Shown here: in pieces, positions 54,600 to 59,947 of the stretch
Layout: each line of letters begins with the position of its first letter
Position numbering within the stretch: the stretch's first letter is position 1
Assembly: GCA_947588605.1 (NCBI GenBank)
Contig: CANPYK010000013.1
Span: forward strand, 1 to 60,872
Source of the DNA: an uncultured Oscillospiraceae bacterium
GTDB taxonomy: Bacteria > Bacillota > Clostridia > Oscillospirales > Oscillospiraceae
Direction: 5' to 3'
DNA length: 60,872 bases
Notes under the pieces: model-generated
What the model saw: the letters and a program-made list of their open reading frames with translations, nothing else
Database searches by the model: none
Told to the model about the DNA's origin: nothing
Made by a program: the position numbers and the translations under genes

Positions 54600-55485
54600 C
54601 GGCACGGTGATCAAGGCCCTCAGCGGGTTTTACTACGTGGAGACGCCCTCCGGCGTCCTCACCTGCCGCGCCAGGGGACGGATGCGCTATGATAAGCTGA
54701 CGCCCCTGGTGGGCGACCGCGTGGCGGTCACGCCCACCGCCGCGGGGGAGGGGACATTGGACGAGATCCTGCCCCGGAAAAACAGCTTCACCCGCCCGGC
54801 CGTGGCCAATATCGACCAGATGGTCATTCTGGCCGCCAACGTCGTCCCGGTGACGGAGCCGTACCTCATCGACCGCATGGCGGCCATCGCCGCCCACGCC
54901 GGGGCCGGGACGCTGGTGGTGCTCAATAAGCGCGACCTGGACCCCGCCGACGAGCTCTACGGCATCTACACCCGGGCGGGGATAGATGTCCTGCGCGTCA
55001 GCGCCCTCACCGGGGAGGGGATCGGGGAGCTGCGGGAGCGCCTCGCGGGGCGTTTCAGCGTCTTCACCGGCAACTCCGGCGTGGGGAAATCCAGCGTCCT
55101 CAACGCCCTGGACCCGGCTTTTTCCGTCCCCACCGGGGAGGTGAGCCAGAAGCTGGGCCGCGGCCGCCACACCACCCGGCACGTGGAGATCTTCCGCGCC
55201 GCCGGCGGGGCGCTCATCGCCGACACCCCCGGCTTCTCCGCCTTCGACGTGGAGCGCATGGAGCTTTTGAGCCCGGAGGAGCTCCAGTACGCCTTCCCGG
55301 ACTTCGCCCCGTATCTTGACAAATGCCGCTTCACCGGCTGTTCCCACACCAAAGAGGCCGGCTGCGCCGTCCTGGAGGCCCTGCGCGAGGGCAGGCTGGA
55401 GCCCACCCGCCACAAAAGCTACGTCCGGCTCTACGAGCAGCTCAAAGCTGTCAATGAGTGGGAGCGGAAACCTGTAAAAACGTGA
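54592..55485 (+). CDS. rsgA: ribosome small-subunit GTPase RsgA
   Basis: This 297-residue circularly permuted GTPase matures the 30S subunit. An OB fold comes first, then G4 NKRD, G1 GNSGVGKSS, G3 DTPGF and the zinc site CRFTGCSHTKEAGC. GTG 54592 overlaps the prkC stop. It ends the conserved operon and is followed by a strong terminator. Confidence 0.96.
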   Translation: MVDGTVIKALSGFYYVETPSGVLTCRARGRMRYDKLTPLVGDRVAVTPTAAGEGTLDEILPRKNSFTRPAVANIDQMVILAANVVPVTEPYLIDRMAAIAAHAGAGTLVVLNKRDLDPADELYGIYTRAGIDVLRVSALTGEGIGELRERLAGRFSVFTGNSGVGKSSVLNALDPAFSVPTGEVSQKLGRGRHTTRHVEIFRAAGGALIADTPGFSAFDVERMELLSPEELQYAFPDFAPYLDKCRFTGCSHTKEAGCAVLEALREGRLEPTRHKSYVRLYEQLKAVNEWERKPVKT

Positions 55486-55495
55486 AGTTTTTTAG

Positions 55496-55532
55496 AACAT
55501 CGGAGTGATTTCAGGTCATTCCGATGTTTTTT
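55496..55532 (+). terminator. rho-independent terminator of rsgA
   Basis: AACATCGGAGTGA (55496-55508) pairs with TCATTCCGATGTT (55516-55528), with one G-U, followed by TTTT and more T. Confidence 0.9.
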
Positions 55533-55533
55533 C

Positions 55534-55561
55534 TTGACATTTTCCGCAAAATGTATAAACT
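55534..55561 (+). promoter_or_regulatory. probable promoter of the ABC exporter leader
   Basis: TTGACA (55534-55539), directly after the rsgA terminator, is followed after 16 bp by TAAACT (55556-55561), a weak -10. It would drive the 370-nt leader with two small ORFs and an attenuator. Confidence 0.5.
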
Positions 55562-55593
55562 ATACGTTGGGTTGCGGAAAGGAGGTCGGCAGC

Positions 55594-55620
55594 TTGCGAA
55601 ATCTATACAAAAACCATTAA
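55594..55620 (+). CDS. leader ORF 1, 8 codons
   Basis: A TTG start is preceded by AAAGGAGG (55578-55585, spacing 8), stronger than most sites in the window. The peptide is MRNLYKNH. Its TAA stop (55618-55620) lies at the edge of the MITE-like palindrome, so the ORF may have been truncated by that insertion. The ribosome binding site block GCGGAAAGGAGGTC-like is repeated before leader ORF 2 (CGGAAAGGAGGTC). Confidence 0.4.
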   Translation: MRNLYKNH

Positions 55621-55780
55621 TACTAATATCTAATTAAAATAAGACATTTGCGACGGTCTTTTTCGCGCCAGGCTGCGTCAGCCGCCTTGGGAATACATAC
55701 AGTATTCCCTGCGGCGTCTTCCTTGCCTGACACGAAAAACCCTCGCCGCTCGGTGTCTTCTTTTAAATAGATATTAGTAT
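55620..55780. mobile_element. 161-bp MITE-like palindromic element
   Basis: The two halves are imperfect inverted repeats over the whole length. Outer arms ATACTAATATCT (55620-55631) and AGATATTAGTAT (55769-55780) are perfect, and the centre GGGAATAC-5 nt-GTATTCCC (55689-55709) is also perfect. It encodes nothing. The nearest open context is TA-rich, so a TA target duplication is possible but not provable here. It sits between the two leader ORFs of the ABC exporter. Confidence 0.7.
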
Positions 55781-55805
55781 AAAACTACGGAAAGGAGGTC
55801 AAAAC

Positions 55806-55862
55806 ATGTCCACTTTGTACCTGAATATTGTCTTTCGGCATAGCGGAGACATCGTTGCATGA
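55806..55862 (+). CDS. leader ORF 2, 18 codons, probable attenuator peptide
   Basis: ATG 55806 lies 7 nt after a perfect AAAGGAGG (55791-55798). The peptide is MSTLYLNIVFRHSGDIVA. Its stop codon TGA (55860-55862) is the first part of the left arm of an intrinsic terminator (55859-55867). This is the architecture of ribosome-dependent attenuation: a ribosome pausing in, or finishing, the ORF would change folding of the terminator and so expression of the ABC exporter 70 bp downstream. Confidence 0.6.
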   Translation: MSTLYLNIVFRHSGDIVA

Positions 55863-55907
55863 GGCGATGATTTAGGCTAAGGCCGGTCGTCGCCTCATCT
55901 TTTTTTC
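55859..55907 (+). terminator. attenuator terminator before the ABC exporter
   Basis: ATGAGGCGA (55859-55867) pairs with TCGCCTCAT (55890-55898), followed by eight T (55900-55907). In its loop GCCGGTC (55882-55888) is complementary to GACCGGC (55925-55931) right before the exporter's start codon, a possible alternative pairing. Confidence 0.8.
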
Positions 55908-55932
55908 AGAAAAAGAAAGGAATTGACCGGCA

Positions 55933-57729
55933 TTGAATTTCATAAAGACTTTACATAAAAACGCGAAAAGCATCTTTTGGCTCATCGCGTCCTACTGGAA
56001 ACACGGCAAGGGCGTGGTGCTCTTCGGGCTCTTCGCCAACGGCGTTATTTGGCCCCTGCGGGACATCCTGTCCGTCTATCTTCCGCAGATCGTGGTGAAC
56101 GCGTTGGAGGACGGGCGAGGGATCTGGACCGTTGTGGGGCTCATGGCCGCCATCCACGCGGTGGCATATCTTGCGTACGTCACCCACGACATCCTCTGGG
56201 ACTACGTGGAGCCAGTGGGCGGCGAGCGGGTGAAGCTGGCACTCAAGCGCCAGGTCTACGACAAGGCCGAGAAGACCGACTACGCCTGCATCGACGACCC
56301 CAAGTTCTACGACAAGTATAAGTGGACCCTGGACAACTACGCCGATAAGTCCGGCGAGGCCGTCCAGATGCTCAACGAGCTGGTGCGCGGGGTGGTGGCG
56401 ATCTCCGCTCTCGCGGCCATTATCGCCGCCGTGTCGCCCTGGGTGGTGCTGGTGGTGGCGGCCTACGGGGCCGTCAGGATCGGCTTTCACCTCAAATACA
56501 ACAAGCTGGACCTGGAGCGGGATGAGAAGACGGTCAAGCATAACCGGAGGCTGGACTACATCCACAGGCTCTTCTACATGAAGGACTACGCCTCAGACCT
56601 GCGCGCCACCCATCTGCCCCGGCGCTCCCGGGAGTATTACGACCGCTATGCCAGGGACAAGGTGAGCGTCATGAGCGGCATCCAAAAGCGCTACATCGCC
56701 CTGGAGATGTTCCAGCGGGTCTTCAACATGGCCTCCCAATTTCTCACCATGCTTCTCATCGTCCTGTCCTTTTACCGGGGCGAGATCGAGAACGCCGCCA
56801 TGCTCATCACCCTCTTTATGGCGGCCAACACCCTGGATATCGACCTGTGGGACATCCTGGACGTGGTGAAGGGCTTCGACAAGGTGGCCAACTATGGCGC
56901 GAAGGTGCGGGAGTTTTTCGACCTGCCCTCCCAAATTGAGAGCGCGGACAAGACCCTGGACCCCCCGGAGGGGGCGTTCACCGTGGAGCTCCGGGACGTG
57001 TCCTTCCGCTACACCGACGCCGGGCCCTGGGTCCTGCGGCACCTTGACCTGACCCTCCGGGCCGGCGAGAGACTGGCGGTGGTGGGGGAGAACGGCGCGG
57101 GGAAGTCTACGCTTGTGAAGCTCCTCCTGCGCCTTTACGACGTGACGGAGGGCGCCATACTCGTGGACGGCGTGGACGTGCGGGAGTACGACGTCCACAG
57201 GCTCCGGGAGCGGATCGGCGCGGCCTTCCAGAACACCAACGTCTACGCCATGACCTTCGCGGAGAACATCACCCTGGCCCACGAGACCGGTAACGAAGAG
57301 CTTTCCCAAATCGTGGATAAGCTCATGCTCCGGGGCGTCCTGGAGAAAAACGGCGCGTCCTTTGAGGCCGAGCTCACCCGGGAGTTTGACGAAAAGGGCG
57401 TGGTCCTCTCCGGCGGCGAGGTGCAGAAGGTGGCTATCGCCAGGCTCTACACCGCCCGCTTCGGGATGCTCATGCTGGACGAGCCCTCCTCGGCTCTGGA
57501 CCCCATCGCGGAGTATGAGATGAACCGCATGATCGTCCAAAGCACCCGGGGGGCCACAACGCTCCTCATCGCCCACAGGCTCTCCAGCGTCCGGGACATG
57601 GACCGCATCGTCGTCATCGACGGCGGCCGCGTGGCCGAGACCGGCACCCACGACCAGCTCATGGCCCGCGCCGGCCTCTACGCTGAGATGTTTGAAAAGC
57701 AGGTGCAGGGCTACCGGGAGATCGCGTAA
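55933..57729 (+). CDS. ABC exporter, fused membrane and ATPase domains
   Basis: This 598-residue half-transporter has an N-terminal membrane domain with about six helices and a C-terminal nucleotide-binding domain: Walker A GENGAGKST, Q-loop AAFQNTNVYAMTF, signature LSGGE, Walker B LMLDEPS and H-loop IAHRLSS. It would pump a drug, peptide or lipid outward, as a homodimer. The start TTG 55933 has only AAAGG 12 nt upstream, suggesting tight translational control. The leader structure points to induction by a ribosome-affecting compound, but this is inference. Confidence 0.9.
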   Translation: MNFIKTLHKNAKSIFWLIASYWKHGKGVVLFGLFANGVIWPLRDILSVYLPQIVVNALEDGRGIWTVVGLMAAIHAVAYLAYVTHDILWDYVEPVGGERVKLALKRQVYDKAEKTDYACIDDPKFYDKYKWTLDNYADKSGEAVQMLNELVRGVVAISALAAIIAAVSPWVVLVVAAYGAVRIGFHLKYNKLDLERDEKTVKHNRRLDYIHRLFYMKDYASDLRATHLPRRSREYYDRYARDKVSVMSGIQKRYIALEMFQRVFNMASQFLTMLLIVLSFYRGEIENAAMLITLFMAANTLDIDLWDILDVVKGFDKVANYGAKVREFFDLPSQIESADKTLDPPEGAFTVELRDVSFRYTDAGPWVLRHLDLTLRAGERLAVVGENGAGKSTLVKLLLRLYDVTEGAILVDGVDVREYDVHRLRERIGAAFQNTNVYAMTFAENITLAHETGNEELSQIVDKLMLRGVLEKNGASFEAELTREFDEKGVVLSGGEVQKVAIARLYTARFGMLMLDEPSSALDPIAEYEMNRMIVQSTRGATTLLIAHRLSSVRDMDRIVVIDGGRVAETGTHDQLMARAGLYAEMFEKQVQGYREIA

Positions 57730-59733: not shown

Positions 59734-59777
59734 GAAGTCCCCTGTGAAGGGTCCGCGGACCTTTCGCAGGGGACTTC
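59734..59777 (-). terminator. long hairpin, probable terminator of the Asn/Gln-rich gene
   Basis: A nearly perfect 22-bp stem centred between 59755 and 59756 (GTCCGCGGAC in the middle) lies just after the minus-strand stop at 59796. The minus-strand flank is TTCTTTGG, a modest T run. It is effectively bidirectional and also closes sipL. Confidence 0.65.
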
Positions 59778-59795
59778 CCGCCGGGATGAGGCGTT

Positions 59796-59921
59796 TTACC
59801 GCTGATTGTTCTGCTGGTTGTTGTTCTGCTGCTGGTTCTGCTGGTTGTTCTGCTGCTGATTGTTGCGGTTGTTGTTATTCTGCTGGTTGTTGCGGTTATT
59901 GTTGTTCTGCTGATTGCTCAT
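59796..59921 (-). CDS. 41-residue Asn/Gln-rich micro-protein, candidate spore protein
   Basis: The protein starts MSNQQNNNNRNNQQ and, after Met-Ser, consists only of Asn, Gln and three Arg; there is no hydrophobic residue. AGGAGG (complement of 59931-59936) lies 9 nt before the ATG. A sigma-G-like promoter (complement of 59948-59977) stands right upstream. In composition it recalls the Gln/Asn-rich gamma-type small acid-soluble spore proteins of Bacillus, without clear homology. Expected product: an unstructured forespore protein. It is missed by length cut-offs. Confidence 0.7.
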   Translation of the reverse strand: MSNQQNNNNRNNQQNNNNRNNQQQNNQQNQQQNNNQQNNQR

Positions 59922-59947
59922 TGAAACTCACCTCCTGAGGTTGAAAA

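Follow-up and report, generated by a model that had tools for sequence, protein, structure and literature searches.

In the sections of four reports drawn on here, antibiotic-responsive attenuators built around a short upstream open reading frame (uORF) control either ABCF factors or drug exporters, and all were described in cultured bacteria (PMC9226507, PMC4191407, PMC10314930, PMC10201436). The vmlR leader of Bacillus subtilis, as presented there, has a uORF led by a Shine-Dalgarno sequence (SD) and a set of anti-antiterminator, antiterminator and terminator, and the SD of the main gene is under a second level of control that the antiterminator relieves (Takada et al. 2022, PMC9226507). The vmlR peptide may vary, in that MIN, MDN and MDK are functional and MRK is less so (PMC9226507), which is in line with a largely peptide-blind sensor. 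The cplR leader of Clostridioides difficile combines transcriptional with translational attenuation in a clostridium, its terminator hairpin holding the main SD, and its uORF has the consensus MR[I/M] (PMC10201436). In the bmrB-bmrCD system of B. subtilis, uORF-dependent attenuation with predicted anti-antiterminator, antiterminator and terminator controls an ABC drug exporter (PMC4191407), and in msrDL-msrD a uORF lies before an intrinsic terminator that is obstructed by the stalled ribosome (PMC10314930).

The DNA analysed here (the window) is a stretch of 60,872 nucleotides from an uncultured Oscillospiraceae bacterium, and it carries, ahead of an ABC exporter gene, a real and conserved leader that is a dual attenuator and probably a ribosome-responsive one. 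As in the attenuators of bmrB, vmlR and cplR, a short ORF with an SD lies near the promoter and is followed by an intrinsic terminator and then by the target gene. Our literature searches returned no paper recognisable as describing this leader, which belongs to uncultured Clostridia and precedes an exporter that reaches no curated cut-off among the matches listed. An older collection of predicted attenuators before ABC transporters dates from 2010 and is presumably the work of Naville and Gautheret. By its description, that collection is alike in kind and includes one leader before a multidrug export operon of lactobacilli; its genera are different ones (PMC2965389).

Set beside these accounts, the window leader differs from each known system. 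vmlR has a three-codon uORF and an ABCF ribosome-protection factor as its target, whereas here the uORF has 14-24 codons and the target is a membrane exporter (PMC9226507 for vmlR). cplR has the uORF MRI, an SD inside the terminator stem-loop and, again, an ABCF target (PMC10201436); the target here is a 598-aa ABC exporter, and not the ABCF protein that would mark an ARE-ABCF leader. bmrB is 162 nt long, contains its terminator and serves a two-gene exporter, bmrCD, and a helix between terminator loop and ribosome-binding site (RBS) goes unmentioned in the sections concerned (PMC4191407). msrDL needs the arrest peptide MYLIFM at its stop codon (PMC10314930), whereas the peptides of the longer uORF described below (ORF2) have no visible common arrest sequence.

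We compared eleven full leaders, including that of the window, each of which stands before the exporter or an orthologue of it. The other ten exporters are 55-96% identical to that of the window (L031-L033, from sister species, 96, 94 and 90%; L034, 78%; L036-L038 and L081-L083, 55-57%). L035 (77%) begins within the terminator and was excluded from the eleven, and L078-L080 and L100, being the same sequences as L031-L033 and L037, were counted once. Every one of these close orthologues with upstream DNA carries the leader. That ORF2, the terminator and the pairing of its loop with the RBS recur before an orthologous exporter in ten more leaders lifts the observation in the window beyond chance, and such a comparison helps to tell selection on the RNA from selection on the peptide in a uORF.

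An earlier note on this DNA had pointed to a promoter-like TTGACA, which we find at 55534-55539 with a matching -10 hexamer, TAAACT, that ends at 55561 after a spacer of 16 nt. Read directly, this sigma-A type promoter, TTGACA-16-TAAACT (55534-55561; it, the other leader elements and the exporter all lie on the forward strand), has 10 of 12 matches, and it was the sole promoter-like site in a scan of 55000-56500, where shuffled sequence gave a mean of 0.5. A TTGAC[A/G/T] hexamer lies 67-139 nt upstream of ORF2 in L032-L034, L036-L038 and L081-L083. Both short ORFs of the earlier note, with 8 and 18 codons, are there behind AAAGGAGG, which forms the SD at 55578-55585 for ORF1 and at 55791-55798 for ORF2 and sits each time within a 13-nt direct repeat, CGGAAAGGAGGTC. 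With their SDs, ORF1 (MRNLYKNH) occupies 55578-55620, running from the TTG at 55594 to the TAA at 55618-55620, and ORF2 (MSTLYLNIVFRHSGDIVA) occupies 55791-55862, running from the ATG at 55806 to the TGA at 55860-55862. The exporter begins, as had been proposed, with a TTG, at 55933.

Between the two ORFs lies an element that the earlier note overlooked, a MITE-like repeat of 160 bp (55620-55779; no strand assigned) flanked by TA on both sides. Its 30-nt terminal inverted repeats are 90% complementary; its own genome holds about 40 copies (29 near-full and eleven shorter or split), to which the copy in the leader has up to 98% identity; and it is matched at E<=1e-20 in 22 of the 34 genomes of the genus. 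In the sister species L031, L032 and L033 the insertion site is empty, the gap between ORF1 and ORF2 there measures 23 nt, and comparison of filled with empty sites is consistent with a duplicated TA. L031 has a copy of its own in the same leader, between -35 and -10 (77-240; G020:C19:77-240), so that the two leaders were struck by the same element at different places. Because the repeat is absent from the site in the sister species, it is a later insertion that lies outside the switch. In this genome the element interrupts the two-peptide unit of the earlier note. An SD-led short ORF that starts 50-59 nt before ORF2 is also found in L031-L034 and L081-L083, and L036-L038 have no convincing counterpart of ORF1. 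Its position is kept in eight leaders including the window, and its peptide drifts and is often basic, beginning with MR in six of the eight (e.g., MRNLYKNH, MRKITLKH, MRKRNERNI, MRIKNF), to be compared with the MR[I/M] of cplR.

The intrinsic terminator, T (55859-55906), was placed by folding and comparison, with a stem of 55859-55872 and 55885-55898, an apex of GGC/GCC and seven U residues at 55900-55906; the arms 55859-55870 and 55887-55898 are 92% complementary. A pattern scan did not list it because that scan takes loops of 3-8 nt and the loop of T has 16 nt. The 96-nt terminator stretch folds with -33.4 kcal/mol (z -3.8), and 1 of 200 shuffles was as good. The earlier note had seen the left arm at the stop of the second ORF and had suggested looking for the terminator in relatives: the stop position is kept among them, and T occurs in all 11 leaders with a nearly invariant stem. 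Across the leaders 95.2% of its cells are paired, with no compensatory change, and the apex and loop sequences diverge strongly in L036-L038. In a plain terminator one would look for drift with compensation, and the near invariance of the stem UGAGGCGAU/GUCGCCUCA (55859-55898) is accounted for only in part by the stop codon and by overlap with the antiterminator discussed below. Just 3' of the ORF2 stop, within T, AUG-AUU-UAG is found at 55867-55875; AUG-NNN-stop is likewise found in L031-L034, L081 (with UGA as the stop) and L083, and not in L082 or L036-L038. It may serve reinitiation as a mini-ORF, or may simply follow from the sequence of the stem.

The loop of T also contains GCCGGUC (55882-55888), which is exactly complementary to GACCGGC (55925-55931) in the spacer between the exporter SD (AAAGGA, 55916-55921) and the TTG, within an RBS that spans 55916-55935. 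This pairing, S2, had been noticed in the earlier note, and relatives bear it out: all seven pairs (G-U allowed) can form in each of the 11 leaders, as GCCGGUC/GACCGGC in seven, as GCCGGUC/GGCCGGC with one G-U in L082, and as GCCGAUC/GAUCGGU in L036-L038, where a G-C pair has become A-U by compensatory change. When 62-nt tails were shuffled, a full partner arose in 16 to 92 of 2000 cases in the six leaders tested, and the helices of the two main groups, with -12.9 and -9.5 kcal/mol, weakened to -8.9 and -6.5 kcal/mol when their partners were exchanged. In contrast to vmlR, as described in the sections used, the RBS would be held by the terminator's own loop and not by a separate hairpin, and the antiterminator strand would lie inside the uORF (PMC9226507). 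In contrast to the published outline of cplR, it is the spacer between SD and start that pairs with the terminator loop, and it does so across a hairpin (PMC10201436). This hairpin, H (55899-55915), joins the U tract to an A-rich stretch before the exporter SD and is predicted in all 11 leaders, weakly so in L031-L033 and the window (-0.4 to -1.2 kcal/mol); by eye, it has two-sided changes between lineages (CUG/CAG, CCG/CGG, UCG/CGA). A search of the whole window against Rfam 15 gave 0 matches at the gathering score, and the best E value within 55480-55960 was 0.71, which is chance level and points to no described RNA family.

ORF2 is present with a strong SD in 11 of 11 leaders. In 10 of them the terminator opens with its stop codon, which lies 3 nt earlier in L083; its length ranges from 14 to 24 codons, with a longer in-frame start also available in L036. 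Apart from that of the window, its peptides are MSTFSLHTVFRHSGDIVE, MSNLRLYTVFRHSKDIVE, MSTINRNSVFRHSEDIVV, MCRHAYSELRRAEINAHR, MLLFESRYNGCFER, MSIGKLFEEHIRKNGAPRRCRNMR (twice), MFDRRTYGLRLSCDLVG, MIRTYQLSTRWSYHIDR and MFAFIDILSRQSLRID. No conserved arrest peptide of the MsrDL or ErmCL type is seen in these 11 ORF2s, the first half of which differs even between sister species, and the last residue may be A, E, V, G, R or D. The earlier note expected MSTLYLNIVF to be conserved in related genomes, and this expectation failed: most of its codons drift even among orthologues that are 90-96% identical. Peptide-specific sensing of MSTLYLNIVF is rejected on the drift of codons 3-8.

Random drift of the codons had been offered as grounds for giving up the attenuator. 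It does strike a peptide-specific sensor; a codon-independent sensor of the VmlR kind is spared, as the second half of ORF2 is kept and varies in a pattern that fits RNA pairing. In the four-species clade (the window and L031-L033) 15 of the 54 ORF2 sites vary; codons 3-8 account for 12 of them, codon 14 for two and codon 18 for one, and none falls among the 19 positions that form the 5' side of the antiterminator. Because codons 9-13 and 15-17 are invariant even at third positions, selection on the RNA is indicated. A pattern R-x-S-x-x-[IL] is common to the ORF2 peptides of four lineages (the window clade, L081, L082 and L083), and its recurrence could reflect selection on the peptide; the nucleotides that encode it (roughly CGGCNNAGC and AUCG) coincide with the antiterminator strand, whose complementarity is preserved in L034 with a different spacing and without R-x-S.

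We propose that this strand belongs to an antiterminator (AT), an element that the earlier note did not name. On the predicted fold, before the right arm of T exists, the last 39 nt of ORF2 together with the left arm and loop of T would form a hairpin of about 19 bp (5' strand 55835-55856, inside ORF2; 3' strand 55863-55886, overlapping that arm and loop). Its energies lie between -20.0 and -22.0 kcal/mol in L034, L081, L083 and the window clade. Over ten leaders (L038 was omitted, its ORF2 tail being the same as that of L037) 78.7% of AT cells are paired, against 27-49% when the strands are slid by 1-3 and 74.6 +/- 1.1% in shuffles, none of 500 of which reached the real value; since AT was taken from the fold predicted for the window itself, the slide control is biased in its favour. 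The covariation score was reached by 5 of 500 shuffles, and neither the 4 two-sided pair changes (43 of 500) nor the 15 further pair types (73 of 500) are striking. In the common register, all 19 pairs form in four leaders, 16 in L081, 15 in L083 and 13 in L082, and the counts in these last three, which lie outside the clade from which AT was derived, exceed those at every slide from -6 to +6. L034 forms 8 in that register and has its own, with -22.0 kcal/mol, which 1 of 500 shuffles reaches. L036 forms 11 of 19, against 12 at +3, and L037 forms 9 of 19, against 11 at +4.

When shuffling was confined to the final 30 nt of ORF2, the real energy was reached, of 500 attempts, in 8 for the window, 12 for L031, 15 for L032, 9 for L033 and 1 for L034, and in 40, 129 and 124 for L036, L037 and L038 and 60, 98 and 37 for L081, L082 and L083. 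In L082 AT is not the predicted fold. On this comparative evidence seven leaders support AT well and L082 does so in part; L036-L038 do not support it. The duplex of ORF2 with the T loop, taken alone, gives modest values: across the 11 leaders, between 54 and 385 of 1000 random synonymous recodings of ORF2 are as good, as are between 13 and 329 of 1000 dinucleotide shuffles. If all of ORF2 is folded, the best structure in the window is a different one (-22.0 vs. -21.6 kcal/mol for AT). A candidate anti-antiterminator hairpin, P1 (GUCUUU/GGAGAC, 55830-55850), may also form; its 3' arm varies only between A and G opposite U in the four-species clade, and some other lineages are predicted to form different hairpins in this part of ORF2.

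The layout and the complementarities are conserved, and AT and T exclude each other on paper, a relation found for the window and supported in 7 of 11 leaders. Because AT uses the left arm of T together with GCCGG of its loop, both T and S2 are excluded when AT forms; on paper only, then, the main RBS is locked under repression and released by AT. In the window T exceeds AT in stability by about 4 kcal/mol (-25.6 vs. -21.6 kcal/mol), so the switch would have to be kinetic. In 6 of the 7 leaders examined AT starts at nt 28-30 of ORF2 and stops 2-4 nt short of the UGA on the T edge. We moved a ribosome along ORF2 and set the distance from P site to front edge at 16 nt, which is the toeprint distance given for the vmlR uORF in the section consulted (PMC9226507). 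P-site codons 1-5 (window clade) or 1-4 (L034, L081 and L083) would leave AT intact; later codons would break it, with T still possible until about codon 13; and the last few codons would cover much or all of the left arm of T. The same scan on L036, L037 and L082 offers no AT step to rely on.

We lean, with somewhat better than even confidence, towards a translation-responsive attenuator of the VmlR/CplR kind that works at two levels and in which ORF2 is a ruler and not a sensor peptide. The earlier note's ribosome-dependent attenuation of the exporter fits the comparative evidence well, with peptide conservation as the part that fails. Under unhindered translation of ORF2, ribosomes would open the 5' strand of AT and leave at the UGA, T would form, and transcription would end at the U tract. 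Any read-through transcript would stay untranslated for the exporter, as GCCGGUC of the T loop would bind GACCGGC between the exporter SD and start. A ribosome held within about the first five codons of ORF2, by a block of initiation or early elongation, would allow AT (55835-55886) to form, which would remove the terminator and free the exporter RBS simultaneously. The place of the stop codon would then be explained, because the end of ORF2 matches the end of the AT strand. We infer that folding and switching occur in this kinetic order in the cell, that the inducer targets the ribosome and that the exporter removes it. A more specific version is tentative, and we put it at rather less than an even chance: ORF2 would be kept only for the AT strand in its 3' half, and halts in codons 1-5, whatever their sequence, would open both the terminator and an RBS lock drawn from the loop of T (a nested pseudoknot with H), the same GCCGG serving T apex, AT and RBS lock, and leader and exporter would move between unrelated neighbourhoods as a unit. 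If confirmed, the leader would provide a compact dual-level design and a covariance model for finding more, and the inhibitors that induce the leader could reveal the trigger of an orphan exporter.

The chief rival is a block at the stop codon, as in MsrDL, in which a ribosome arrested there by drug or peptide would cover the left arm of T and make AT unnecessary. MsrDL is reported to operate so in the part of that study drawn on here (PMC10314930); a ribosome with the last sense codon of ORF2 in its P site would cover 15 nt of T, the whole left arm, and the coincidence of stop and first T triplet in 10 of 11 leaders is what such a block would use. We nevertheless regard it as unlikely: the variable last residues reveal no common arrest peptide, the T loop would be left free to pair with the exporter RBS and shut off translation, and the AT complementarity would go unexplained. 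An attenuator of the trp kind, reading particular ORF2 codons under amino-acid starvation, has the same hairpin logic and is scarcely credible, as regulatory codons are neither repeated nor conserved in ORF2, there is drift in codons 3-8 and the downstream gene is an exporter.

The attenuator that we favour has also to be weighed against readings in which the ORFs do not matter. T and the loop-RBS pseudoknot might themselves be the switch, as a riboswitch or as a binding site for an autoregulatory protein, and the nearly invariant T stem and conserved loop-RBS helix would suit such a leader. This is improbable in that apex and loop differ strongly in L036-L038, with no conserved pocket seen, Rfam gives no match and ORF2 has kept its strong SD throughout. 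It is highly improbable that T is an ordinary intergenic terminator, with ORFs present by chance and a constitutive exporter: short ORFs are common and unrelated terminators score weakly with R1, a model built from the terminator region, but ORF2, its stop position and the loop-RBS complementarity are found together in 11 of 11 leaders, before exporters down to 55% identity.

The gene under control encodes an ABC exporter half-transporter of 598 aa (55933-57729), identified by its frame and its family and PDB matches. In NCBIfam its best match is MsbA, with 203.8 bits against a cut-off of 602, and no family cut-off is reached among the best 25 of 186 matches. In Pfam ABC_tran alone passes its cut-off, and ABC_membrane is not among the 3 matches listed; of PDB sequences (best 60 of 248) ABCB4/ABCB1 are the best, the best stretch lying over the ATPase half. 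Further along the window, a 64-codon frame at 59744-59938 includes a run of Cys, Ser, Ala and Gly; it may encode a small Cys-rich protein or be open by chance.

Leader and exporter have the same narrow distribution. The exporter is found at E<=1e-80 in 7 of the 34 genomes of the genus, and the same 7 have a strong leader match (E 1.0e-14 or better); at E<=0.01, R1 matches 8 of the 34, these 7 strongly and an eighth (G009) weakly, at about 1e-3. G017 has a second, weak match (about 1e-3) on the opposite strand. A sample of 400 genomes from the family contains 9 with an exporter at E<=1e-120; the three in the genus all have the leader, and by reading, none was found within 420 nt upstream of the other six (36-40% identical). 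R1 at E<=0.001, run with stricter filters, which lose weak matches, matched 4 of 394 genomes from the order, namely that of the window, G017, G569 and G185; of 398 from the phylum it matched 3, that of the window and two weak ones. Unrelated terminators also receive weak R1 scores, and by eye the weak matches in G009, G185, G872 and G1092 are plain terminators without the motif, which we rejected as leaders. No such leader was seen by eye upstream of the distant exporters L039-L043, L065 and L084-L090 (32-40% identical), and a strict expression for the T motif found nothing at the remaining distant loci, although the same expression missed L083. Viral contigs gave 0 with an exact pattern and plasmids 0 matches at E<=1e-100.

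G569 is the sole strong R1 match outside the genus, and within its own family R1 matched 1 of 146 genomes, G569 itself. Its leader is identical to that of L037 and has the exporter downstream; upstream is a putative alpha-galactosidase-like gene, as read from the translation. The gene upstream of the window leader we take to be rsgA, the name given in the earlier note. From these two loci, leader and exporter appear to stay together while their neighbours differ. The element 'Lapin' in the MAG names of several relatives suggests the rabbit gut.
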